Assembly (NCBI RefSeq): GCF_000003605.2
Contig: NW_003143798.1
Span: 74,077 to 112,176, forward strand
Source: Saccoglossus kowalevskii
Taxonomy: Eukaryota > Hemichordata > Enteropneusta > Harrimaniidae
Direction of reading: 5' to 3'
DNA: 38,100 nucleotides
In this document: one piece after another, positions 6,778-38,100 of the stretch
Layout: each line of letters begins with the position of its first letter
How positions within the stretch are numbered: the first letter of the stretch is position 1
Position numbers and translations under genes: made by a program
The notes under the pieces: model-generated
What the model was told of the DNA's origin: nothing
The model's database searches: none
The model's input: the letters and a program-made list of their open reading frames with translations, nothing else

Positions 6778-7355
6778 ATTACCGGCTTTGTAGGTCGTTC
6801 TTCGTTTATAAAATAAATACACTTTATTTTCTAATTGTGGACAAACCAATATCGAAGATGTCGGCCATCTTCTTTTCACCTTATTCACGCCACAAAAGAG
6901 ACCCGTCGCTAGATTGTGAAATGACCGATATTCTAAACAAGCAGACCGACCAATTTCGACGTTTGACATTAATCTATTCCATAGGGGTACCCAGTCTTGA
7001 TTCCAAACTAGAGTTTGAGGTACCCATACATACGTACCTACTGTGAACGTGCTGATGTAGCATTTTATTACCGGCTTTGTAGGTCGTTCTTCGTTTATAA
7101 AATAAATACACTTTATTTTCTAATTGTGGACAAACCAATATCGAAGATGTCGGCCATCTTCTTTTCACCTTATTCACGCCACAAAAGAGACCCGTCGCTA
7201 GATTGTGAAATGACCGATATTCTAAACAAGCAGACCGACCAATTTCGACGTTTGACATTAATCTATTCCATAGGGGTACCCAGTCTTGATTCCAAACTAG
7301 AGTTTGAGGTACCCATACATACGTACCTACTGTGAACGTGCTGATGTAGCATTTT
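6778..7355. repeat. perfect 289-bp tandem duplication
   Basis: 6778-7066 is repeated at 7067-7355 without any difference I can find, starting ATTACCGGCTTTGTAGGTCG and ending GCTGATGTAGCATTTT. Both copies contain matching ORFs on both strands that code for nothing recognisable. Identity implies a very recent duplication, gene conversion or an assembly artefact. Confidence 0.93.
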
Positions 7356-8804
7356 ATCTTTAAGTACAGGTCCTATTTTCCCTTAAGATATAAACGTATA
7401 AACTTCGGTCATAGTGTGACGGTGATATATGTAGTAGATAATATTTGCTAATCTTTGTCCTAAGTAACTATTAAAAATATCTAGACGTTTCGCGCAATGG
7501 CTCTTTATCGATAACACAGTAGAACATGTTAAAACGTATAGGTAGAACTTAAGAACGTAATGACACGCACAGCAACTATAAAATGGAATTTCTAAGTAGC
7601 CAGTTTGCCTCAACTTTCCTCGAGAACATCATGTGTTACATACATCACCGACACCATCCTAACACCTACTATATTAATAAAATTGTGTATACAAAGCTAT
7701 GTACCTATGTATTATACTATATTATCATACATCTGTCACCGTAACGCCATAAGTTACAGCATGCCGTAATTTTGCGGTATTTTACGGGGTATTTTCATCC
7801 TACCATATTAAGAAATGCGAATTCCAAATATGGAATGATTACGCGCGTAAGCGTTCTCTGATAATAAAAAAAAAAAACATTGCTGCCACAAAGCAAGGTT
7901 TGGCCGGACTCCACACAAAGAAATTCGCTGATTCTGTTCTAATTTTTTTGGATTTCGGCATTCCCATGATGTATCATTGGGAGGAAAAGATGTATAATAA
8001 TAAGGTTATTACGAGGATATCTGAAAATATGCACTCAGACAGTACGCCGTCGCATCGACCTACTGCGTCCAAGATTACTGCCAAACCAAGGTGTTTTTTT
8101 AAATATGCATTATTGCCTTTTACAGGGTGTAATATGGACAAAAACTGCTTAAACACAAGAATACCCATAATTATGCATATTTTCTTTTTAAATATTACCG
8201 ACCGAATACGACTTGGCATAAATGACCCAACACGTGACGAACTAAACATAATACTTACATAATACATACTACGCTAAGAATAATACACTTACATATAAAG
8301 ATGATATATAGACACAATGAGGGGGTAAATTTGAAGCGTGACGTAGTAGTAACTGAAATGACACATCGAATATACTGCACATCAAGAAACATAACAACAT
8401 GCCTATCATCTGGATTTTGACAAAATTAACCTCATCCAATTACAGACACGTTCACGCTAGCAAGGTTTGTGTGTATACGGACAGTATCTTGGGTATATCT
8501 ATAACTCTGAATCAATAGAAAAAGCGACACTTATTCTGTGGTGATTAATATTGTATATATGAATTAGCTTACATGTTTGTAATGACAAATGAACCATACC
8601 AACTTTGTACACCTGTATGCTATAATTGGATGTGATGCCATTTTAATCTAAAACGTTTCCTTTTGATGATTATTTTAAATTTTTGACCGGTAAATTTGCT
8701 GTACTGGATTTTCCATGACTGTAAGAAGTCGAAATGAGATGGGTACAGCAATTATAATCAAAATCGATTGGTAATTTTAAAGGCTAAGGTACACGTGTTT
8801 AAGT
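7356..8804. other. no recognised gene
   Basis: A 120-codon + strand ORF (7900-8262) has no recognisable domain, no clear start context and AT-driven composition. Otherwise AT-rich sequence without structure I can name. Confidence 0.5.
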
Positions 8805-9135: not shown

Positions 9136-10275
9136 TGCGCAAAACACGTTTTTAGTTTATGATAACTTGTGTATGTGTGTGCGTGTGTGCCAACATGTGA
9201 AATCAACCAACACATTCACCAAGCTGCCCGATATTGCATTTTTAAGGTTTGCGCTTCAAGGGATGGGAGTTTAAACGCATGCATTTCCACTCTATATGAA
9301 AATTTGTCCGAAAACTCGCGACACATGGCAAATAAGACGTTTACGGGGGCGCAGATTTTATCGAGATCGCCATTGGCACTTTTAGATGGTAATATTATAA
9401 AAGAAGAAGGTGAGACGCGGGATGTTAGGAGACTGTCGTTGGTTCAGCTGATCGGGATGGATGGGTCCTCATTACATGACTACCTTTCACTGCAGTAATA
9501 TCAATATTTACTAATATTCCCCTGAAATTGTGATGAAAATAATTATCCTGTTGAAATGTTTTTTTCCTAATTGTGTAGAATTGATACAACTTTTACAATA
9601 TAACTGTCGCAATCCGATGTCAGCGTTTTAATTTCAACAAAAATGCGTTTATTTTGAGGTAAAATATATTAATAGAACAAGGCATTTAAATGATTTTGCT
9701 GTTATTATTTATTTATTACTAGCCTGGGTATATACATCTATATCAAATATGGCGGATGAATATTCAAACAAAAAAGAAATGAAACACCATAACCGACGAT
9801 TTTGTGAAACGACTCCGCGCTCCACGCCTGGGATAGCCTAAGTTCAACTTTTTACTCGAGTTTTAAATTATAAATTGTTCAGAGAGCCTAAGTTGCCAGG
9901 GTTGTGACATTTGCAGTGCCATGCGCTGTCAAAAACCCGAGTAGAGGGTCACGATACGTTAAAAACAATGAATAGTCAATCAACACCTTGAGCGTTTCAC
10001 TCGTGTCGTTGTTAAAATAGATACGATGATTATTATATGCCTCTTAACCGTATCGGATTGCAGTGCAAGCTTTCAAAGATGGACAATAAAACACTTTCGG
10101 TCAAATGAAAGTTATTTTTAATACATTAAAACTCCTGTTCAGGATAATCACGGCTTTACTCACTATTAGTGTGCTGCCACAAATCCGGGTTCAAACTCAT
10201 TGCAGATACACAATACAATATTCATATTCACATTATTTTATATGTAAACACCCCCAACTCCATTCAATATGCTTT
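9136..10275. other. no recognised gene
   Basis: Contains a 109-codon ORF (9169-9498) without recognisable homology, and AAATATGGCGG at 9745 opening a 30-codon ORF. Nothing else supported. Confidence 0.5.
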
Positions 10276-11058
10276 CATACAATATATTCACAGAGTACAT
10301 ATCTACGCCATATGCCACGCTCACACCCATATATTTATACATATACACATACACCATTACACCGTATACTACACTTCCATACAATATATTCACAGAGTAC
10401 ATATCTACGCCATATGCCACGCTCACACCCATATATTTATACACATACACAAACACCTTTACGCCATATACTACACTTCCATACAATATATTCACAGAGT
10501 ACATATCTACGCCATATGCCACGCTCACACCCATATATTTATACATATACACATACACCTTTACACCTTACACTACACTTCCATACAATATATTCACAGA
10601 GTACATATCTACGCCATATGCCACGCTCACACCCATATATTTATACATATACACATACACCTTTACACCTTACACTACACTTCCATACAATATATTTACA
10701 GAGTACATATCTACGCCATATGCCACGCTCACACCATATATTTATACATATACACATACACCTTTACACCATACACTACACTTCCATACAATATATTCAC
10801 AGAGTACATATCTACGCCATATTCCACGCTCACACCATATATTTATACATATACACAAACACCTTTATGCCATATACACTTCCATACAGTATATTCACAG
10901 AATACATATCTACGCCATATGCCACGCTCACATCCATATATTTATACATATACACAAACACCTTTACACCATACACTACACTTCCATACAATATATTCAC
11001 ACAATACATATCTACGTCGCACGCTGCGCTCACATCCACATATTCAAACGCCCGCACC
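10276..11058. repeat. 102-bp minisatellite, about eight copies
   Basis: Units begin with CATACAATATATTCACAGAG at 10276, 10378, 10480, 10582, 10684, 10785, 10883 and 10985, so the period is 102 bp with single copies of 101 and 98. Each unit has ATCTACGCCATATGCCACGC and a CAYA/TATA-rich half. The + strand of the unit lacks all three stop codons, so all three forward frames stay open for 270-320 codons. The predicted Tyr/His/Thr-rich peptides look like no known protein. I read it as a satellite, not a gene. Confidence 0.95.
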
Positions 11059-25400: not shown

Positions 25401-28400
25401 AGACAGGAATAAAGCAAATGACATTTACGCGGTTATTTGTCACGTCCGAGGACACCGCAAATTAAAACGTTTCCTATTTATTTCGAAGTAACTCTGAAGG
25501 GGTGCCCAGACGGTGAAGCACTCCATAGACACGGGCAAACTCACCTTGATCACTAACATTCCAATCTCGTATGTTTACGCCTTAATCGACAATATCAACA
25601 AACGATCTTTGTTTGCAAACTACCGTGAGCATGATCAAAAAAACGCCGCAGACATTGATTAGGAGAAAATTCCATAACTGGAATGTACCGCCCTCATGTG
25701 CCTTCAATTGCATTTATAGCTCACAAATTAGGCTCCTAACAAAACACAATTATTTTACACTCGAAACTATTTAGAAAACAAATATTACACTAATTTGTCG
25801 TTGGTATATGCGAAGGTATTTTCACTACGGTAGGTGGTGGCGTTGGACGCATGTCCCGTCTTGTTTCCGTCAACACCGGCATAGTTTAGCTTTATAAAAC
25901 ACCACATATTTTCATCAATTACCAGGCTTGGGTTCAAAAGATGTTATTTTCATTTTATTATTTTTCCATAGAACGTTCCTCATTCCGCGCACCGAACAAA
26001 CAGCCAGCTGCAAATGGAGTATATTCTAAGACGAGCCCATTTAACGGAGTGACATCCTCTTTGGGTCTGGACACCACGCCATTTGACATTCCAGAAGGTG
26101 AGCGGCTCACACAAAGTCTTATTCTACGTGATTTTCCGCTCTCTTTTAGAGCGACCTACAGTGAGTGGAATGTCACACGGGTAAAGCGCAACTGTCGTCG
26201 TGTTCGCTCATAGACCTTAGGCTGTATTCCAATATTGTTTTTTCGCGTTGAGGAATGCACTCTTTGAGCACACGTTTTTTTTTTTTTATTTCTTAAGCGA
26301 TTTATATGTATTGGACTAGTTTCTAATATACGACACCAATTTGTAATAAAAAAAATTAAAGTGCATTTTGTTTCTTGGGATACCAAATACTTATTATTGT
26401 GAAAGTATTTCACAAATATAGGAGTAAAAAATAATATATTCTGATTTGTAAATTTAAATGATAGAAATATAAGTTGAACATGGAAAATAAAAATAATGGA
26501 CGTTGATATTTTAGGAAAGCAATGACGTCACATATGGTAAATATGTGACGTCATTTCTTTCCTAAATGATGCTCGACAAATGATTTTACTATTATATTCT
26601 AATTTTATACTAGTATATGTTTTGCTTTTCAACAGGGATAGCAATTTATCAAACAACGTTTGCTGGTTGTATGCACTACGGTGTTTTCTGCAATAAAGAC
26701 GTCATCCCGAAAGGTACTCGGTTCGGTCCGTTCGTCGGCAGAACCGTTCACACTAGCGAAATTAAAACCAACGATGATAACACTCACATGTGGGAGGTAC
26801 GTACTTGTTGCCCTAGCGCTTCTTTCTCGTATATGCCGCCCTCTAGCGGGAGTTTTCGGAAACTATTTAATTCTGTTTCTTAATATACCGGTAATTTTAT
26901 TTTAATGTTTCAGATTTTCAAAGATGGGAAACTGAGTCATTTTATCGATGGTCGAGGAAGCTCTGGTAATTGGATGAGTTACGTTAACTGTGCTCGGTAC
27001 GCTCAGGAACAGAATCTTCTTGCAATCCAGTCTGATGGTGAAATCATGTATGAGACATGCAAAGACATACCAAGGGTAGGAACCAACATGTCATTATCGA
27101 AATATATTCGTAGTTAACTTATGTGACTGGTTAAGTCTATTAGATGTTGTTTGCTTTTGTATCTAGTTAAAATTTGTTAAATAAATTGTGATTCTTTAGT
27201 CAAATATCGACATTATTCAGGCACATGATCAGTTGTATTTGTTGTCTCTTCAAAGCTTGTCATCAATTTCCAATTTGATTTACTCATACGAATGCTAATG
27301 CCTAGTTCAAGCTAGTTAAATATTGTTACATCTGGTTCATTCTAGTAAAATATCCAATGTTTTATCGGGTTTAGTCTGTTTCATACTTGTTATTTCTAGT
27401 TCAGGCTAGTTGAATATTGTTACATCTAGTTCATTCTAGTAAAATATCCAATGTTTTATCGGGTTTAGTCTGTTTCATACTTGTTATTTCTAGTTCAGGC
27501 TAGTTGAATATTGTTACATCTGGCTTATTCTAGTGCAATATCAATTGTTTTATCAGGTTTAGTCTATTTCATTCGTGTTATATCTAGCTCAGGCTAGTTA
27601 AATATGGTTTGTTCTAGTACATTATCCATTGTTTTTTTCAGGTTTAGTCTATTTCATTCGTATTATACCTAGAGTCCAGGCTAGTTTAATGTTGTTACAT
27701 CTGGTTTATTCTAGTACAATATCATTCGTTTTATCAGTTTTAATCTGTTTCATTCGTGTTATATCTGGTTTAGTCGTAATGCTCTAGTTTAGTCCGGTTT
27801 ACGCTTGTTATATGTAAAAACATGACGCCGCACTGTATGTACATACTTATTCACACAAGCAGCCATGAATAGTCGTAGTCATGGTTACTGTCTTTTCACC
27901 CCAGGGTCAAGAGTTGTTGGTTTGGTACGGAGATTGTTACCTCCAGTTCATGGGGATACCAGTGGCTTTAAAAGAGATGGCGGATGGGAATACAGTTGAT
28001 GACAGCACAGCTGAGAGTAAGTAGTATTCTCATTAATTTAGAAAATGTAGTGATAAAAGGGAGAAACGTACATAGAAAATATATCGAAAAAATCTTTTTC
28101 CTATCACTTTTTCCTCTGAAAGACGTATTATTTTTAAACGACCTACAAGATTGCAAAGAATTGTGGGTAACCACTGATGCCAAACTGGGAATGATATTAC
28201 ATAACAATCGATTAATCATCAATCATCCAAATCAATCAATCTACCATCATTTTCTTTGCAGATAAAGAAGGCTACGCCTGCGAACGCTGTGGTAAAGTGT
28301 TTGCGTACAGATACTATCGTGACAAGCATTTAAAGTACACGCGATGTGTGGACCAAGGCGATCGTAAATTCCCATGCCATCTTTGTACTCGTTCGTTTGA

Positions 28401-29678
28401 GAAGAGGGATCGACTCAGGATACATATACTGCATGTACATGAGAAACACCGCCCTCACAAGTGCACAGTTTGTGGCAAATGCTTTTCACAGGTGAGTTTA
28501 AGCGCCCTCTACGATTCAAACAAAGTAGACTATTTTTTAGTTTCAAAACACATTGTGACAATATGAACATTTATTTAAAGCCGTCTTTACCTGTGTATAC
28601 GTCAGATGGCCATAGCGTGTCATTGTTTACAAACAAGCGTCTACCCATGAGCCTTTGAGTTTTTAGCGTGTGTTGTTATCGTCGCCTGGGACTCAATTCC
28701 CACGATAGCGCAGATGACGACCCTCCCGCTTGAAATGCTGCGAGTTTTCATCCATGTTAATAATCATATTTTTTTCATTATTCTTCAGTCGTCAAGTTTG
28801 AATAAACACATGCGAGTTCACAGTGGAGAGAGACCGTACAAATGCGTCTATTGTAGCAAGGCCTTCACTGCATCCAGCATTCTAAGAACTCACATCAGAC
28901 AACATAGTGGCGAGAAGCCGTTCAAGTGTAAACATTGTGGGAAGGCATTTGCATCGCACGCTGCGCATGACAGCCATGTAAGAAGGACGCACACTAAAGA
29001 GAAGCCATGCGTGTGTACGGTCTGTGGCAAAGCGTTTACACAGTCGTATGAACTGAAGTTTCACATGAATATGCACACGGGTTAGTAGGTACATAATGTC
29101 ATCTGAAAATATTCAAACAAGTTTTGTGTTCATGTTTTGTTTCGTCTTGTATTGTGTGTCATAGTTGTCAACAACGTTATCACTATATACATGTACTAAT
29201 ATCATCATAGTTATTTCATGCGATCGATAGAAACGTGACCCAGTTCATCCAATCAGCACGCATAATTTGGGACATGGTCTGAAATACAAGTTTAACCAGG
29301 GTGAAAACTTTATGTTACGATATCGTACTTCTTATTGATAGACTGACTTCAAATTTCAATTTTTTTTCAGGGGACAAACCATATCAATGTAAAAAGTGTG
29401 GTCGCGGATTTTCTAGCCCGTCTTCACGTGATCGCCACTGTATACATTTTGATTGCTCGGCGTCCCAGGTGATAAAGTGTGTACGAAGAGACAGCAACGC
29501 TGGCAGCTTGGAGTCGACTACATCGTCACCAAGAAGTGATATCAGCGGAATCAGTGATTATCTCAGTAGCACGCCACGCGGTGGATATGATCCTGTCAGC
29601 GATGACGAAATAGACGTAGAAAGCATCGATTTCACAGGGTCTTATGCATGTATTCGTAATTCAATTTCAACTATGTAA
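16432..29678 (+). CDS. PRDM14: PRDM14 orthologue, complete nine-coding-exon gene
   Basis: PR/SET-domain zinc-finger transcription regulator; in vertebrates PRDM14 controls germ-cell specification and pluripotency with CBFA2T-family corepressors. The model joins 16432-16469, 16557-16957, 25972-26097, 26636-26796, 26914-27075, 27905-28016, 28262-28491, 28789-29080 and 29371-29678. All introns are GT-AG and all phases match, giving 609 aa. Order: Pro/Ser-rich N-terminus, a conserved segment around YPLPYYFSQAEIDMVLY (106-122) and HALSGL (136-141), PR/SET domain (about 189-315; NWMSYVNCAR, GQELLVWYGDC), then seven zinc fingers (340-536) and an acidic Ser-rich tail. The SET catalytic NHSC motif is replaced by YVNCAR, as expected for the family, so methyltransferase activity is doubtful. 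Fingers 1-6 match human PRDM14 almost residue for residue (for example EKRDRLRIHILHVHEKHRPH). Finger 7 and the tail are extra. Identity is near certain; only the extreme 5' end is uncertain. Confidence 0.96.
16557..16957 (+). CDS. PRDM14: PRDM14 coding exon 2, proline-rich N-terminus
   Basis: Encodes residues 13-146. It starts after a strong polypyrimidine tract plus AG and ends at AATG|GTACGT in phase 1. The first half is low-complexity Pro/Ser/Gln. The second half, around YPLPYYFSQAEIDMVLY and HALSGL, aligns with the block that precedes the PR domain in vertebrate PRDM14 (FTEEDLHFVLYG...HAISGL as I remember it). ATG 16564 (residue 16) is the alternative start. Confidence 0.9.
16958..25971 (+). 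other. PRDM14 9-kb intron between coding exons 2 and 3
   Basis: By far the largest intron of the gene, phase 1. I find no further exon with recognisable homology. It holds a CRE palindrome (TGACGTCA, 23251-23258), a 17-nt palindrome (18891-18907), a small perfect hairpin (21323-21342), a degenerate two-copy repeat (about 19137-19245) and a C9 run at 23791. Large first introns of developmental regulators often carry enhancers, but nothing here proves one. Confidence 0.7.
25972..26097 (+). CDS. PRDM14: PRDM14 coding exon 3, linker before PR domain
   Basis: Residues 147-188, flanked by TTTTTCCATAG| and GAAG|GTGAGC. The exon is 126 nt and symmetric in phase (1-1), so it could be skipped or joined to an alternative upstream exon without breaking the frame. 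It ends IPE, completed to IPEG by the next exon, matching the LPEG that precedes the PR domain in vertebrates. The Ser/Thr/Gly-rich middle is not conserved. Confidence 0.9.
26511..26565. repeat. near-perfect inverted repeat with two CRE palindromes in PRDM14 intron
   Basis: Two 25-nt arms (26511-26535 and 26541-26565) are reverse complements with one mismatch around a 5-nt spacer GGTAA. Each arm contains TGACGTCA, the CREB/ATF site, and the ends are TTAGGAAAG and CTTTCCTAA. It lies about 70 bp before PRDM14 coding exon 4. It may be a paired CRE element or the core of a small foldback element. Confidence 0.85.
26636..26796 (+). CDS. PRDM14: PRDM14 coding exon 4, first part of PR/SET domain
   Basis: Residues 189-242, beginning GIAIYQTTF and containing MHYGVFCNKDVIPKGTRFGP, the first SET strands. 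It ends MWE|GTACGT in phase 0. The acceptor is a long T/C tract ending CAACAG. Reading on into the intron gives only a short non-conserved tail before a stop, so the exon end is clear. Confidence 0.95.
26914..27075 (+). CDS. PRDM14: PRDM14 coding exon 5, central PR/SET domain
   Basis: Residues 243-296: IFKDGKLSHFIDGRG, then NWMSYVNCARYAQEQN and ends YETCKDIPR. It is phase 0 at both ends, with acceptor TTAATGTTTCAG and donor AGG|GTAGGA. The 54-codon length and content match the vertebrate block MWEIFEDGHLSHFIDG...NWMSYVNCAR. Confidence 0.95.
27303..27770. repeat. 94-bp minisatellite in PRDM14 intron
   Basis: About five copies in the intron between coding exons 5 and 6. The phrase CTAGTTCAGGCTAG starts near 27396 and 27490, with a variant at 27584, at exactly 94-bp spacing; the last units are diverged and shortened to about 85 bp. 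The unit is rich in CTAG and TTTAGTCTGTTTCAT. No coding signal. Confidence 0.85.
27905..28016 (+). CDS. PRDM14: PRDM14 coding exon 6, end of PR/SET domain
   Basis: Residues 297-333, GQELLVWYGDCYLQFMGIPV followed by an acidic linker ending DDSTAE. It holds the SET motif IV equivalent (W303, Y304, G305). The acceptor is TTTTCACCCCAG and the donor A|GTAAGT, phase 1. The exon lies just after a 94-bp minisatellite in the preceding intron. Too short to stand out on its own; found by homology to the vertebrate ELLVWYGDCYEKF block. Confidence 0.93.
28262..28491 (+). CDS. PRDM14: PRDM14 coding exon 7, zinc fingers 1-2 and half of 3
   Basis: Residues 334-410. Finger 1 is C340-C343-H356-C362, a C2HC finger as in vertebrate PRDM14. 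Finger 2 is C372-C375-H388-H393. Finger 3 begins at C401-C404. The donor CACAG|GTGAGT splits finger 3 between Q410 and S411 in phase 0. Confidence 0.96.
28789..29080 (+). CDS. PRDM14: PRDM14 coding exon 8, zinc fingers 3-6
   Basis: Residues 411-507. Completes finger 3 (H417, H421) and encodes finger 4 (C429-C432-H445-H449), finger 5 (C457-C460-H473-H478) and finger 6 (C486-C489-H502-H506), joined by HSGERPY, HSGEKPF and related linkers. Fingers 3-5 are nearly identical to the vertebrate ones. It ends in phase 1 at CACACGG|GTTAGT. Confidence 0.96.
29371..29678 (+). CDS. PRDM14: PRDM14 coding exon 9, seventh finger and acidic tail
   Basis: Residues 508-609 after a T-tract acceptor. A TGDKPYQC linker leads into a seventh finger (C514, C517, H530, then either H533 or C536 as fourth ligand). 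The last 73 residues are Ser-rich with an acidic patch (SDDEIDVESID) and end at TAA 29676-29678. Human PRDM14 stops shortly after finger 6 as I remember it, so this exon's content is an addition relative to vertebrates or was lost there. Confidence 0.9.
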
Positions 29679-29684: not shown

Positions 29685-32600
29685 CTCTATCACAAGAAGG
29701 TGATCATTATTTCTATGGGGAGGAGGTGTTCTGGCAAATCTGTAAAAGAAAACAGATATGCCAATCTGGGTAGATGAAGGATCGTGCAATGTATTGCAAA
29801 ATGAAAAATGAAGATACTTAAAGCGCGGTGTTCGTCGCGCAGCGCGTGTTCGAATTTCATGTAAATAACAATGTATTTTACACGCGTTTCATACGTCGCT
29901 ATGAGTCCATATCGAACAGGACGCGGCGTGACGACCACCGCCCTTTAAACTCCCTTAGTTATGCAATTCGCATACAGGGTGGATTGTTGTTGATGGACCC
30001 TCACAAAATATGTTATTTTGTACTTTTAAGTGTATTTCACCATCCTCTGGTGCACGATTCCAATTAGAAATAACTTAAATACTGAAATTGGAAATTGATT
30101 TAAAGTAAATTAATTTATTTGCAAAATTAATGACTATATTGTATATTCAAGAATTATGATAAAAATGTGTTAGTTTATTCATTTATATGTATTTTGTTCA
30201 TTCAGAATAAGATTACACTTTCTTCATATCAATATTTAATTCCTAAACAATAACTCGAGCAACATTCTTAAATTTGTATATTATTTGCTGTTTTGATAGG
30301 TCAGACTGATTTGCATATCACGTGATGTAGTAGTAGCCAATCAGAGACCACATCTTGAACATCGATTATAATATATACCTACTCCCTAACATGCTGTAAA
30401 TTGTCTACACTATGATATGCGCCCTCTAGCGACAGCTGCAAATTACAGAAACATATGCTGGTTAGCGGCGACTTTTTCCTTACACGCAAAACATATCATT
30501 GTCGCAATTGAGGGTGGCATGTCATAATTTTCTGTGGATTCTTTATGGTACGTAAAAACCCTCAATAATTAAAAAAAAATCAAGTAAAACATAAAAATAA
30601 TTCAATTCAGGGCACCATTTTTCAAGGTAGTACCGGTACACAATGACTTGTAGTTTTTGAACAAGGTATTTCCAACCTTTAGACAGCAGGATCGGCCAGC
30701 TTTTTGCAATAAACTCTGTTACATTTTTGTTTTGTTTTATTTATTAAATTTTTGTATATAAAATATGGAGACTCTGCAGCTCTATAGCTGTGAGAAGTTT
30801 TTTTTATAATTATTCAATCTTTTTGCACATCATGACATGTAAATACATTTGGTGACCATACAAACAGATTGGAGTGGGGGTGGGGGGGGTTCAATTTATT
30901 TCGTTCGTCCACATATACTGACACTGAAAAGCTAGTCTATAATTAAGTGTTCAAGTTACCCGTACAGTTGGAGAAATTGTAATGTTTTGCTTTTTTTTTG
31001 CCAATTTTACTAACTTTACTTCTCAATACTTTATGTGACGACCCCAATGTAGTTATCCAATGAAAATCACCTGTAATGTAACCTTTGACCTCAGCTGTTA
31101 CAGTTAACCAAAGTAGCTCCACCCACCAAACAATCAGGAAATAGGTTACAATTTGTGCCTAATAACCAATCAGGAAGCAATTTGCATATATCATTCAATA
31201 TAAACCAATTGGGAAGTAGCTTATCAGTGACTATATTTGTAATTTTCTCCAACTCGCTTATATTGCAATAAATAGAATGGAATGTTTTTAAAGTATTTCT
31301 TCTAAATAAAGGTTAATAAAGACATTATCTAGTGTTATTTTAATATGTCCAAATTTGGGCATTGCATGTCAATCAAGGTAACGAACATTACTTATATGTG
31401 CTTATCTTTGTCAATATACAATATATCAAACAATGAATGTCAAGTTCAAAGTCAAGTTTAGAAACTTGCCTTGACTTATTTGGTACATCACTATTAAAAC
31501 ATGGAACACTCACCATAAATTCGAAATTGTTCAGATAAATATCAAGTCATGGGAGCCACATGTATTCTACAACAGACATATCAACTGAATGCAACATGAA
31601 TGGACCCCTTCCCCCTTCTGTCGCTAACTTCACCAGTCTCGATTTACATTAGGTTCTCTTCGCTTTATTTGTCGGTCTCAATTTTCAGTGTAACAAACAC
31701 AGCAACAAGAGGGCATCTGTCGATATTTGGACATGATTAGAAAGCTGGATTGACCAATTATCGGATTTAATGGGTCACTGCCTTTGCAAGCACTCACCAG
31801 AACATATTTGACGAAGTAGTTTTGACTTTCCAGCAACTTTCATAAAGGAACATATATAATAATAGCAGAATAATATGACTTCGCCCTGATGTTAATGGGA
31901 TATGGACAATTTTTTTATTCATTTACATCGAACCGAGAGCGAAAATTACTTCCACTGGTTACAAAGATCTATGCAAGGCATATCATTCTGTCAAATTATT
32001 TTTCGTGTTTTAGCAGCGTGAAAACAATCACTGCGAGCCCATTTAATCTCCCTTACTCAAATATGAAGCATATTTTCAGGATTTCAGTTTCAATTAAAAT
32101 TAAAAAACAAATCGAAGGAGTGTGCAATAATGAATATAGAAATTAATTTCTACAATAGTGAATCACAAAGACACAAGTTGAAACCCAAATGATGTATTTT
32201 AGAAAACAGACATCCGAGTCAAAAGACTGCCTTCCATCAAACACCCCCCCTCCTACACACAATGTCAGTGAAGACACACACTATAAGTGTCAAAGTTCAT
32301 TCAATATATTCATTTAGAAATGCAGGACAGAACATTCCACATTGGAGACGACGGGAGTTGTCACCCTAAGACCATACACTGATACAGGCCTCTTGCAGCC
32401 GACAACATTGACCCGACAGCGTGTTTACTTTCGGTGAATGAAAAAGATTTGTATTCTTACCCTCCTCAAATTTTTTCTTCAGATTTAGATGTTTCAGAAA
32501 ATCGAGCCCTGGGGCTTAGAAATCCACGGAATTCCGCGGAAAATTCTCATCCCTGTATATGCGAACGTAACACACACTATTGGATGTCATAAGCGCCTTG

Positions 32601-33185: not shown

Positions 33186-33490
33186 GTGGAGCTGGGTATA
33201 GTTGGGTAACTCAAGAAATGCCTACTGTGGAGCTGGGTATACTTGGGTAACTCAAGAAATGCCTACTGTGGAGCTGGGTATATCGGTACTTGGGTAACTC
33301 AAGAAATGCCTACTGTGGAAGCTGGGTATACTTGGGTAACTCAAGAAATGCCTACTTTGGAGCTGGGTACACTTGGGTAACTCCAGAAAAGACTACTGAT
33401 GAAGCTGGGTAAAATTGGGCACCTCAAGATATTTTTACTTCATTCTGAAATGTCTATTGTAGAGCTGGGTTAACATGGATAACTCCAGAT
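33186..33490. repeat. 41-bp minisatellite downstream of VPS11 stop
   Basis: About seven copies of GTGGAGCTGGGTATACTTGG and GTAACTCAAGAAATGCCTAC, starting near 33186, 33227, 33268, 33315, 33357 and 33398. One unit has a 6-bp insertion (ATCGGT), giving 47 bp. The last copies are diverged. It lies about 160 bp past the VPS11 stop, so probably inside its 3' UTR. Confidence 0.9.
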
Positions 33491-33652: not shown

Positions 33653-34360
33653 TCAGGGACTATAAAAGGGATTACTTGGATCTAGCTGTTTCTCATCTTC
33701 CTCAAATGGATTATTACTTTCTTGTTCAAATGGGTTTTTGCTTTCCTCAAATGGATTAGTTGGTTCTCCAGTTAAGAATGGATTAAGGTGATCAGGAGTT
33801 CGTTGCGGTGTTGGCTTAGGAGCAACTCTATTACTGACTGTCGCTTGACGATTTTCAAATAGTTTCGGTTTCTCGCTAGGTTGGACAAGAGCTTTACCCC
33901 TATTTGTAGGTGGTGTGCGGCTGACAGGCGGTGTGCGGGCAGCAGGAGCTATGCGGCTGCTAGGTGGTGTGTGATGTGGCACAGGTTGCGGCTTGGCAGC
34001 TCGCTTGCTACTATCAAATGCAGCAACATGCTCTGTAGGTTTTGCTGTGTGTCTACTGCTCTCAAACGATGATGCCACGTGGTCGGATGATTTAGTTGAG
34101 CGCTTGCTGGTTTCAATTGACATGACAGGATCTTTGGATTTAGAATGCCTAATCCCATCAAGAGATGTTAGAGGTTCTGTCTGATTGCGACTACTCTCAA
34201 ACGGAGAAACGTTATCAGTTCTTCTGACGGCTGGGAATGGATTGATTGGTTGGCTTTGTTTATGTCCCATCAGCTGATCACGTTGAAGGGTGGGGTCGAT
34301 TACAACTCTCGTTGGAGCAGGTTTCTTCTTCACTGGCATTGAGTCAGTCAAAAGAGTCAC
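33653..34360 (-). CDS. VPS11: VPS11 terminal exon with NPF-rich extension
   Basis: 235 codons then TGA. Codons 1-34 are the conserved VPS11 end (VTLLTD...LQRDQLMGHK). Codons 35-235 are a low-complexity Ser/Pro/Lys/Arg-rich tail. It has four loose repeats around [SA]xF/IESSR/K (near codons 51, 81, 98 and 114), a TPP/RTPP-rich segment (131-152), and six NPF motifs at codons 40, 193, 202, 209, 217 and 230. Five of these sit in the last 43 residues, and three are followed by acidic residues (NPFEE twice, NPFEQ). NPF followed by acid is the known ligand form for EHD-type EH domains. The frame is intact from splice acceptor to stop, which argues for translation. Confidence 0.92.
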   Translation of the reverse strand: MTLLTDSMPVKKKPAPTRVVIDPTLQRDQLMGHKQSQPINPFPAVRRTDNVSPFESSRNQTEPLTSLDGIRHSKSKDPVMSIETSKRSTKSSDHVASSFESSRHTAKPTEHVAAFDSSKRAAKPQPVPHHTPPSSRIAPAARTPPVSRTPPTNRGKALVQPSEKPKLFENRQATVSNRVAPKPTPQRTPDHLNPFLTGEPTNPFEESKNPFEQESNNPFEEDEKQLDPSNPFYSP

Positions 34361-37300
34361 CTACAAGAAAACAAAGACACATACAGTAAATAAAGAGAAT
34401 ATCTGTGTGAGAACATCTATGGGTAAACAGAGACCACATACAGTAAAATACAGAGAACACTTATGGGAGAACTAACTAACAGAGATCCCACATGCACATA
34501 CAATAACTACAAATAAGGTAGAGAAAAACCATAATCTAGAATTGATGTTATGACATCCAATTTGCATAAATCTGAATGGTAATGCGATACATGGATGCAT
34601 GGAATGTCACATAGATTCTAGGCGTTAGTGGATAGTTAGGTATTTATATTTACGTTCTCCACCATTACTACGTATAAAAAATTGTGAACATTGAACACCT
34701 GGTATACTGACAATTCATCCAATCACAGTTAGACATTTATATTTACATTCTCCACCATTACCACGTATAAAAAATTGTGAATATTGAACACCTGGTATAC
34801 TGACAATTCATCCAATCACAGTTAGACATTTATATTTACATTCTCCACCATTACCACGTATAAAAAATTGTGAACATTGAACACCTGGTATACTGACAAT
34901 TCATCCAATCACAGTTAGACATTTATATTTACATTCTCCACCATTACCACGTATAAAAAATTGTGAATATTGAACACCTGGTATACTGACATTTTATCTA
35001 ATCACAGTTAAACATTTATACTTGCATCGCCATATATGGAAGTCAAATTTTAAATGTACCGTAACCTTATCACAATTCTACTTCAATCCTGAACAATTAA
35101 AACCAAAACAAAATTCCTCTAAAATGACTACCGGTAACTGACACCAGGTGGTAAGTTTTCTGCGTTACATCATAAAACGTCTTGCCTTAATTCTTCAGAA
35201 ATTTTAAAACCACTTTGTTATAAATTCTGGTTTCTTAAGAAGGAAAAACAAAAGTTATATTTCCAAACCAAATCAAGCCATCAAAACAATATTTAATTTG
35301 GCATTTATGAATAAAAGTCTGCAATCAATTACTGAGTAAAGAAAAGAGCTTTCTGATAAAATGTTTTTGTGCCAGACAACAGAATTATGACAAAGAGTGT
35401 AACTGTTGGTGCAATTTAAACTGTACATATATGTACATACACAGACATTAATAGACCCTCAGAACCAATGTCGCATTAGTGAATGAGAAATGTCTTTCCT
35501 GTATGGCACACTCACCCAGGGAACAGACCAATTCTTTTAGTGTTTTGTCCCAAGTTGGACAAAGCACTAACTTCTGATTAGAAATATTAAGACTGGATAA
35601 TTGCTACTTATGTAAATTGAGCGCCTATTATGTCCAATGTATGTACCAAGTTTGAACAAAATCCATCTGTAAACAGCAGAGATCCATTTCCATAATAACA
35701 GAAACGCTTGATTATTTTTAGCACCCTCAGCCATTTTGAACCAGATCATAAAACGAGTAGACGTGGATATGTATCCCAAGATGTATGATGTAATTGTGAA
35801 GTTTGAATGTGATTGGACCAGGCATGTCAGCGATACAGGTGGTCGCACATACACACATCACAGAGATCAAAACATAAGTCCCTATTTTTGGACAGTTTTC
35901 GAACTGAAACTAATAATAATTATAAAATATTAAATTTATGGGTAAAGGAGAAAAAAATGTTGGAAGAGGGGGGGGGGCAAGATTAATGGTTCTCTGTTCA
36001 TGATGAAATTCATCTACACAACGATTGTCCTAATGTAGTAACATTTGTATCACTACATTGAATCACAGCTAAAACAGTAAAAGCATTTATGTTAAATGGG
36101 ATTTAATTTAACTTTTTGTTATAATATTCACTGCAGCAGTTCACAAATTCACACATTCTTGAGTTATTTATATTTTTCATGTTAAAGCCTGGTAGTCTCA
36201 TATAAACAAATATGGCGACTTTGACTGTTGCGCAGATCAAAGAGTACGAACTGAGACGTTTCCAAGCTTTAATTAGGTAATTTTCATGTGATTGGAAGGT
36301 ATCGAAAGAGTCACCGGCGGTAATCAGTGCAAGTCGCGCCCAGGTCAAACCTCATACTTGTGATTTCCATTTGAAGAGCGCATTGTATTGTGGAAAAATC
36401 AATATTTATCAACACAAATGTCGCACATACACAGCGCGACGACTACCGCGCTTTAATTTAATTTATGGAATTTGAAGCAAAGTGAGTAATTAATGCAAGC
36501 ACTTTGGATTTCAACTACACAAATAATATTGGTGTTGCACAGGTCGTGTGGGACCCATATTGGACAGTACATAGAATGTGACACTTAAGTCCCAGTCATT
36601 GTACATAATCAAATGACTGATGGAAGAGCTGCATAGTAGGCTCCAAACAAGCCTACTGAAATTAGAAAGTAGGCATGTAAGAAAGACTTATTACCTTGTT
36701 GAAAACACCTCTTCCAAAATAGTCGGCTACAACAGAGAAGCCATCAGTTGCTCTATCCAGCTATAAGAAAAAGTTACAAAAAATGATTTAAAAAAATCAG
36801 GGATTAAAATTCGAGATGTGGTGTATTCGGCTTCGCTCGGGAAAGTACGGCCGCAGGATACATCGCATCACTCGTGAAAATGACTTCCATACGCAACGAA
36901 AGCCACGGGGAGGGTGTGGGGTTCTGTCATATTACAATACATCATTGCCCATAAACTACTGTAGAATACTTTATTGAAGGGATGCTTCGGTGAAAATAAA
37001 ATCCAGCGAATATACCTTTTCTCCCATATTTCACATTCAACATATAAAAAATCAGTGAAAATAAATCCCATACAAAACACATTTCAGTGAAAACTAATTC
37101 CAGCTAAAATGAAGTACGGTATTTTACAGTAATAACAATATACCAATGTTCAAAACTATAACTCTACACCACAATTACATAATTTTTTGTTTTCAATTAA
37201 AAAATTTTGTATTAATTTGTTTAAAAAAAAAACATTTGTAGAATGTTTCACCACAACTTTTGAAAACCAAGATGTTTACCTGGTGATGAAACTGTTCATG

Positions 37301-37406
37301 TAAGTCCTTGCTGTGTTCCTGTGCGCGGATGATATCCAAGACCTTCCTATTTTCAGACATGCAAGCCGGACACTCTGATTCACTCTCAGCGTAACCTTCA
37401 AAACAA
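33653..37406 (-). CDS. VPS11: VPS11, last three coding exons (5' part outside window)
   Basis: C-terminal part of VPS11, a core subunit of the HOPS and CORVET endolysosomal tethering complexes. Exons 37280-37406, 36695-36760 and 33653-34360 splice in phase into CFEGYAESESECPACMSENR, HSKDLHEQFHHQLDRATDGF, SVVADYFGRGVFNK and VTLLTDSM...LQRDQLM. This matches the human C-terminus (ECPTC..ENRKV..RDLHDQFQHQL..FSVIADYFGRGVFNKLTLLTD..LQRDLLM) as I remember it. Human VPS11 ends about seven residues later. Here the exon continues for about 200 more codons of Pro/Ser-rich sequence with six NPF motifs. The N-terminal beta-propeller and alpha-solenoid exons lie beyond 38100. The gene converges with PRDM14. 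Confidence 0.94.
34635..35025. repeat. 93-bp minisatellite in last VPS11 intron
   Basis: Four copies with GTTAGaCATTTATATTTACA beginning near 34635, 34728, 34821 and 34914, plus a partial fifth at 35007, exactly 93 bp apart. The units are highly similar, including CCACCATTACCACGTATAAA, so expansion is recent. It lies in the intron between the terminal and penultimate VPS11 exons. Confidence 0.9.
36212..36276 (+). CDS. candidate orphan first coding exon inside VPS11 intron
   Basis: ATGGCG with a favourable context (AAATATGGCG) opens MATLTVAQIKEYELRRFQAL followed by I and a split codon. It ends in phase 2 at a donor ATTAG|GTAATT. The peptide is charged and helix-like, unlike the Ile/Asn-rich noise of most chance ORFs here. 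I do not recognise it and cannot find the exon it would join within the window. It would be transcribed opposite to VPS11. Chance is a serious alternative. Confidence 0.3.
36695..36760 (-). CDS. VPS11: VPS11 22-codon exon
   Basis: 66-nt exon encoding LDRATDGFSVVADYFGRGVF then NK, in phase 0 on both sides. The acceptor is TTTTTCTTATAG and the donor AAG|GTAATA. The peptide is the invariant ADYFGRGVFNK block just after the VPS11 RING. Too short for an ORF scan, found by splice sites and homology. Confidence 0.92.
36761..37279 (-). other. VPS11 intron with dispersed repeat fragment
   Basis: Intron between the last RING exon and the 22-codon exon. Near 36988, 37052 and 37084 the phrase CxGTGAAAAyTAAwTCC recurs, ending in TACGGTATTTTACAGTAA near 37117. 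This resembles a decayed dispersed repeat of short CAGTGAAAATAAATCC modules. No coding signal seen. Confidence 0.4.
37280..37406 (-). CDS. VPS11: VPS11 exon, end of C-terminal RING domain
   Basis: 127 nt, entered in phase 1 or 2 after an ATAG acceptor (37407-37408), left at CACCAG|GTAAA in phase 0. It encodes CFEGYAESESECPACMSENR and continues through HSKDLHEQFHHQ. The final Cys pair (CPAC) is the last metal-ligand pair of the RING-H2 finger; the earlier ligands are on an exon outside the window. A split His codon before CFE would complete the usual HxHCFE motif. Confidence 0.92.
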
Positions 37407-37480: not shown

Positions 37481-37516
37481 TATGAATGGCTCACCCATCA
37501 TTATTATTATTTTCAG

Positions 37517-38100
37517 CCTAAGATTCACAAGGTAAACAATCCTGGTAGACCCATTGTCTCAGCATGTAATTGTCAGACTGAGCACATAGCTCGATATTTG
37601 GATTCAATGTTGAGACCAATTGTTGCGTCACAGCCTACGTATGTTCAGGATACTAATGATGCACTTAGGAAACTAGAGTTATTTCGTTTCACACCGGATA
37701 AACCCAGATTTTTATTTTCTATGGATGTAAAATCACTTTATACATCTATCCCGCACACTGATGGACTGTTGGCTTTACAGCATTTTCTGAATAAAAGGGC
37801 AGTTAAGGATCCTCCTACGTTTGTGTTGATGCGCCTAGCGGAATTAGTTTTGAACGGGAATTGTTTTTCTTTTAATGGAAAACATTATATACAGAAACGA
37901 GGTGTGGCTATGGGCAGTTGTTTTGGTCCGAGCTATGCATGTTTATAAATGTCATATCAAGAGTTAATTTTTTCGTCCTTTCAAGGCACTAAACCTGAAT
38001 TTTATGTCAGGTACATTGATGATGGCTTTGGTGCCGTGTCAAGCAGTCGGGATGAGTTATTACAGTTCATTGACTATGTTAACACTTTATCCCGCCATAC
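37517..38100 (+). mobile_element. Penelope-like element reverse transcriptase, 5'-incomplete, with in-frame stop
   Basis: Reads PKIHKVNNPGRPIVSACNCQ, then MDVKSLYTSIPH (RT motif A), KRGVAMGSCFGPSYACL (motif B), then a TAA stop at 37946-37948 where the family has an aromatic residue. It continues in the same frame to RYIDDGF (the catalytic YxDD motif) and beyond the window end. The PGRPIVS, SLYTSIPH and GVAMGS combination is typical of Penelope-like elements rather than LINE or LTR enzymes. It starts abruptly at PKIHK without the RT N-terminus. It lies in a VPS11 intron, antisense to the host gene. The stop makes this copy inactive unless it is an assembly error. Confidence 0.88.

Follow-up and report, generated by a model that had tools for sequence, protein, structure and literature searches.

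An NPF-rich C-terminal extension of VPS11 in Saccoglossus kowalevskii suggests a direct link between the endosome-fusion machinery and membrane recycling

Does the VPS11 gene of the hemichordate Saccoglossus kowalevskii encode, beyond the conserved end of the protein, a tail that could attach a tethering complex to the recycling machinery? The question was raised by an earlier note on a stretch of 38,100 nucleotides (contig NW_003143798.1, positions 74,077 to 112,176 of the forward strand; hereafter the window, in which positions are counted from the first base), which reported an in-frame run of about 200 codons past the motif LQRDQLM with six NPF motifs, five of them crowded into the last 43 residues and three of the six with a Glu after the motif, and read them as candidate ligands of EHD-family or Eps15-type EH domains.

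The minus strand of the window carries the last three exons of VPS11, delimited by eye at canonical splice signals (Table 1); of the RING, only the end (CPAC) lies within the window. The joined three-exon translation matched the Pfam family VPS11_C (PF12451) over the complete model (positions 1-45 of 45, at 72.1 bits with a cut-off of 25 bits and E 4.1e-20), and in the genome (572,110,611 bases in 4,830 contigs) this family was found above its cut-off at one place, the penultimate exon of the same gene (model positions 21-45). Because the match stops one residue short of the last exon, that exon is assigned to VPS11 on the strength of the in-frame splice and of its likeness to the human end. 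The donor AAG/GTAATA at 36695/36694 and the acceptor TTGTAG/GTG at 34361/34360 are canonical by eye and join the two exons in frame. The last exon opens with VTLLTD and reaches LQRDQLM, both of which we take to be counterparts of the human VPS11 end, and then runs on for 204 residues to a TGA; scanned alone, it matched no Pfam family up to E 10. Among PDB sequences nothing matched the joined C-terminus up to E 10, and the conserved part had two hits, both on a pre-protein VI and at chance level (E 1.2, E 1.8). Viral and prokaryote contigs gave 2 and 22 pattern matches, respectively, with no relative among them, as expected.

Table 1. Features of the VPS11 3' end in the window (splice junctions marked by a slash).
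Feature	Position	Strand	Basis
VPS11 exon, end of RING (CFEGYAESESECPAC...EQFHHQ)	37280..37406	minus	acceptor ATAG/T, donor CAG/GTAAAC, boundaries by eye; VPS11_C match starts here
VPS11 penultimate exon, 22 codons (LDRATDGFSVVADYFGRGVFNK)	36695..36760	minus	boundaries by eye; VPS11_C on joined exons
Last VPS11 exon (235 codons, TGA at 33653-33655)	33653..34360	minus	open reading frame
Extension beyond LQRDQLM (204 residues) with TGA	33653..34267	minus	translation
NPF 1 (NPFP)	34235..34243	minus	motif count
Degenerate 18-base coding repeat, stretch of TPPxxR units	33908..33971	minus	repeat scan
NPF 2 (NPFL)	33776..33784	minus	motif count; Eps15-type context
Degenerate tandem repeat with NPF 3-5 (NPFEE, NPFEQ, NPFEE)	33698..33758	minus	motif count and repeat scan
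NPF 6 (NPFY, also NPxY), then YSP and stop	33665..33673	minus	motif count

The surroundings of these exons are rich in repeats. The last VPS11 intron contains a non-coding tandem repeat (34634-35027, 93 bases x 4.2), and another (33186-33429, 41 bases x 5.8) begins about 220 bases past the VPS11 stop codon. A reverse-transcriptase fragment (RVT_1, 37481-37948, plus strand, E 0.00025, below the curated cut-off), on the strand opposite to VPS11, is found upstream of the exon with the RING end and probably lies within an intron. On the plus strand, an exon for a PR domain (26614-26883; Pfam PRDM2_PR, E 7.9e-10) is followed by a C2H2 zinc-finger exon (28651-29085), with further zinc-finger-like frames seen by eye at 28216-28566 and 29283-29678; this is a PRDM-type gene adjoining VPS11. 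Farther away, a perfect tandem duplication at 6778-7357 (289 bases, 2.0 copies, 100%) is either recent or an assembly artefact, and a 102-base tandem repeat at 10272-11044 (7.6 copies) keeps three forward frames open over 274 to 329 codons, which look like products of the repeat and not genes. Elsewhere in the assembly, mitochondrial COX1 (contig C4830) has seven in-frame TGA codons and one AAA codon, the latter at a conserved Lys site; with ATA read as Met by the chosen code, these codons fit an invertebrate-type code and weakly speak against the echinoderm code.

The long in-frame run reported earlier was borne out, as the last exon stays open over 235 codons up to its TGA; the extension itself begins not at 34258, as had been stated, but three codons earlier, at 34267. 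The motif count likewise holds: six NPF motifs lie at residues 40, 193, 202, 209, 217 and 230 of the tail exon, five within the final 43 residues, and three read NPFE (NPF[DE] in three of the six, NPF[DE][DE] in two). All six frames of the window together hold ten NPF, six of which fall in this open reading frame. When the 204 residues were shuffled 200,000 times at constant composition, none, one, two and three NPF occurred in 182,745, 16,645, 602 and 8 shuffles, respectively, and at least four in none; when the last 43 residues alone were permuted, 100,000 times, the maximum was three, reached in four shuffles. The open frame is itself an unlikely product of chance (with stops as frequent as they are locally, 204 codons would stay open with a probability of about 1e-6 to 5e-6), and the GC content of the last exon (0.46) is close to the values of the adjacent coding exons, 0.43 and 0.47, and unlike that of the intron (0.34).

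What the earlier count had missed is the tandem repeat behind the NPFE units (period 24, 2.8 copies, 69% match). Since they stand in one repeat, the three NPFE motifs probably share one origin, and the six NPF are better counted as about four independent origins; the shuffle test therefore overstates the rarity of the NPFE units, which are not independent of each other, and is a weak null for a sequence grown by repeats. Among the three tandem units, the NPFE cores differ by 2, 0 and 2 codons without any residue change, whereas the three codons after the cores show 3, 2 and 3 residue changes. This pattern, in a tiny sample, leans towards selection on the motif.

The composition of the tail is of the disordered type. 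Order-promoting residues make up 0.149 of its first 161 residues and 0.186 of its last 43, compared to 0.294 in the conserved exons, and by a charge-hydropathy rule both parts count as disordered (-0.174 and -0.436), although the folded conserved exons also fall below zero (-0.008), so the rule is weak here. The net charge changes from +13 in the first 161 residues to -8 in the last 43. In the middle of the tail, the motif F[E/D]SS[R/K] and the unit TPPxxR each occur three times. A search of the genome with the whole tail returned its own locus and, at E 4.19, a single further match (three candidates scored), and a search with the 37-residue NPF tip returned itself only (one candidate scored; short unrelated NPF clusters would be missed by it). 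An origin of the tail as a transposon or as a copy of another gene was rejected, since these searches gave no second copy.

Human VPS11 (941 residues) ends soon after LQRDLLM, and we know of no NPF-rich extension in it; after the RING it has about 80 residues, against about 280 in the Saccoglossus protein. The Saccoglossus protein has in common with VPS11 a complete VPS11_C, the preceding end of the RING and an in-frame last exon; the 204-residue NPF-rich extension sets it apart and is probably a lineage-specific addition. For human VPS11, residues 821-860 have been used as the RING (PMC4847778), and a group that sought VPS11-knockout HeLa cells did not succeed in making them (PMC10618185).

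Among 11 candidates scored, the EH-domain family occurs at three places in the genome. At one of them lies the C-terminal exon of an EHD protein, with EHD4 as the best match (E 2.6e-80); its EH domain, matched alone, is much closer to that of EHD1 (E 2.2e-47) than to Eps15 (E 9.1e-23), and has 63 of 95 residues in common with EHD4. The stretches compared contain equal charged totals in the Saccoglossus exon and in EHD4 (12 K+R and 15 D+E), a net count that is not positive and does not by itself indicate a basic surface. The two further EH pieces lie 4.5 kb apart on one contig and are presumably Eps15-like. Suitable partners for the tail therefore exist, and both kinds of NPF receptor, EHD and Eps15-like, seem to be present in this animal. 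At E 0.001 the Rbsn Pfam domain matched nothing in the genome, an uninformative negative, with two candidates scored and no working control.

The chemistry of the motifs, as the earlier note had proposed, fits the preference of EHD-type EH domains for NPF flanked by acidic residues, described in a 2026 review for MICAL-L1, rabenosyn-5, Rab11-FIP2 and rabankyrin-5 (PMC13282721). SNAP29, a SNARE of HOPS-dependent fusion, also binds EHD1 through an acidic NPF (PMC6551745, available part). The Saccoglossus tail shares NPF followed by acidic residues with all five ligands and would differ from them in that the candidate ligand sits on a core subunit of the tether. The accessible portion of the EHD interaction table in PMC13282721 does not contain VPS11, which counts against the reading.

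Three alternatives compete with EHD binding. The tail may be a fast-evolving extension of low complexity that arose through short tandem duplications, in which the NPF motifs are by-products with little or no function. Two coding tandem repeats within it (Table 1), the lack of a second copy in the genome search and the repeat-rich neighbourhood with its reverse-transcriptase fragment agree with this; on the other hand, NPFP and NPFL precede the NPFE tandem and NPFY lies beyond it, and the silent-only differences among the NPFE cores, next to replaced neighbours, would be unexpected, small as the numbers are. Because the tail is partly repeat-grown and known from one genome, we regard this explanation, rather unlikely as it is, as the chief rival. 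That the genome carries the tail and the protein mostly lacks it, another last exon or an early termination being used, seems very improbable to us: the splice sites are canonical, the frame is open, the conserved end LQRDQLM lies within the same exon as the tail, and the GC content of that exon is of the coding kind. It draws some support from the polyadenylation side, where the first canonical AATAAA downstream was found at 31919 and nearer positions held variant hexamers only (33655 to 31501 scanned).

A translated tail may instead serve another partner. NPFL and NPFP are preferred by EH domains of the Eps15/intersectin type, NPxY by PTB/FERM domains and TPPxxR by SH3 domains, and the tail offers NPFL, NPFP, an NPFY that is also its one NPxY, and three TPPxxR units, in a genome with two EH exon pieces that resemble Eps15. 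This explanation is nevertheless distinctly unlikely, given that the two general SH3-type patterns P..P.[RK] and [RK]..P..P found no match in the last exon, and that three of the six NPF stand in the acidic context described for EHD (PMC13282721, sections available).

Whether binding of EHD by VPS11 would be new is a narrower matter than had been claimed. The link between tethering and recycling, called undescribed in the earlier note, is not wholly so, as EHD and tethers are already connected via other subunits and clients. FERARI, composed of rabenosyn-5, VPS45, VIPAS39, Rab11FIP5 and an ankyrin together with EHD1, combines tethering with EHD1 (PMC9359993, available passages); the text of that paper contains zero occurrences each of VPS11, HOPS, CORVET and NPF. 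The CORVET subunits Vps3 and Vps8 act in recycling (PMC5824891), and SNAP29 has been mentioned above. The interpretation thus keeps its motif chemistry and gains an EHD gene in the genome, while the breadth of its novelty has to be given up: new would be that the core subunit VPS11 itself carries the putative EHD ligand. Among the papers listed in searches of the open PubMed Central library, none was seen to describe an NPF-bearing tail of VPS11, though a report, for instance in a subscription paper, could be missed in this way; PMC4775215, which contains both VPS11 and NPF, was rejected since NPF stands there for an actin nucleation promoting factor. The recycling role of Vps3 and Vps8 also links CORVET to recycling but was reported without the core, Vps11 included: in HeLa cells recycling vesicles lacked the core subunits, and the overlap of GFP-Vps11 was notable with Rab5 only (both in the accessible part of PMC5824891). 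The reported absence of Vps11 from these vesicles counts against an EHD-binding arm on VPS11, at least for mammals.

We nevertheless put at about even chances the reading that VPS11 of S. kowalevskii ends in an unstructured docking arm whose acidic NPF tip binds EHD and brings it to HOPS/CORVET on endosomes. Within the yeast complexes CORVET and HOPS, Vps11 uses its RING and C-terminal helix to hold Vps3 or Vps39 by the C-terminus (PMC11187117), and a tail that follows the RING would therefore project near that joint. The arm would leave VPS11 just after the end of RING/VPS11_C; it would be flexible, with the acidic NPF cluster at its tip, and this cluster could dock with avidity onto the EH domain of the Saccoglossus EHD (RME-1/Past1 type). 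In this way EHD, a membrane-remodelling ATPase, might be brought to HOPS/CORVET on endosomes and affect recycling, and Eps15 perhaps be collected beside the tether through NPFL.

FERARI, in which a tether is joined to EHD, exemplifies the arrangement that the NPF tail would allow. In the boldest form, which we consider doubtful and offer as speculation, the HOPS/CORVET core would recruit EHD via the multivalent NPF arm of VPS11, and one complex would both tether or fuse and pinch endosomal membranes, a FERARI-like class C device. More generally, the NPF tail suggests a direct link from the endosome-fusion machinery to membrane recycling. VPS11 is common to HOPS and CORVET, and the EHD wiring, if true, would mean that a conserved tether has gained a fission partner by means of a tail of short motifs.
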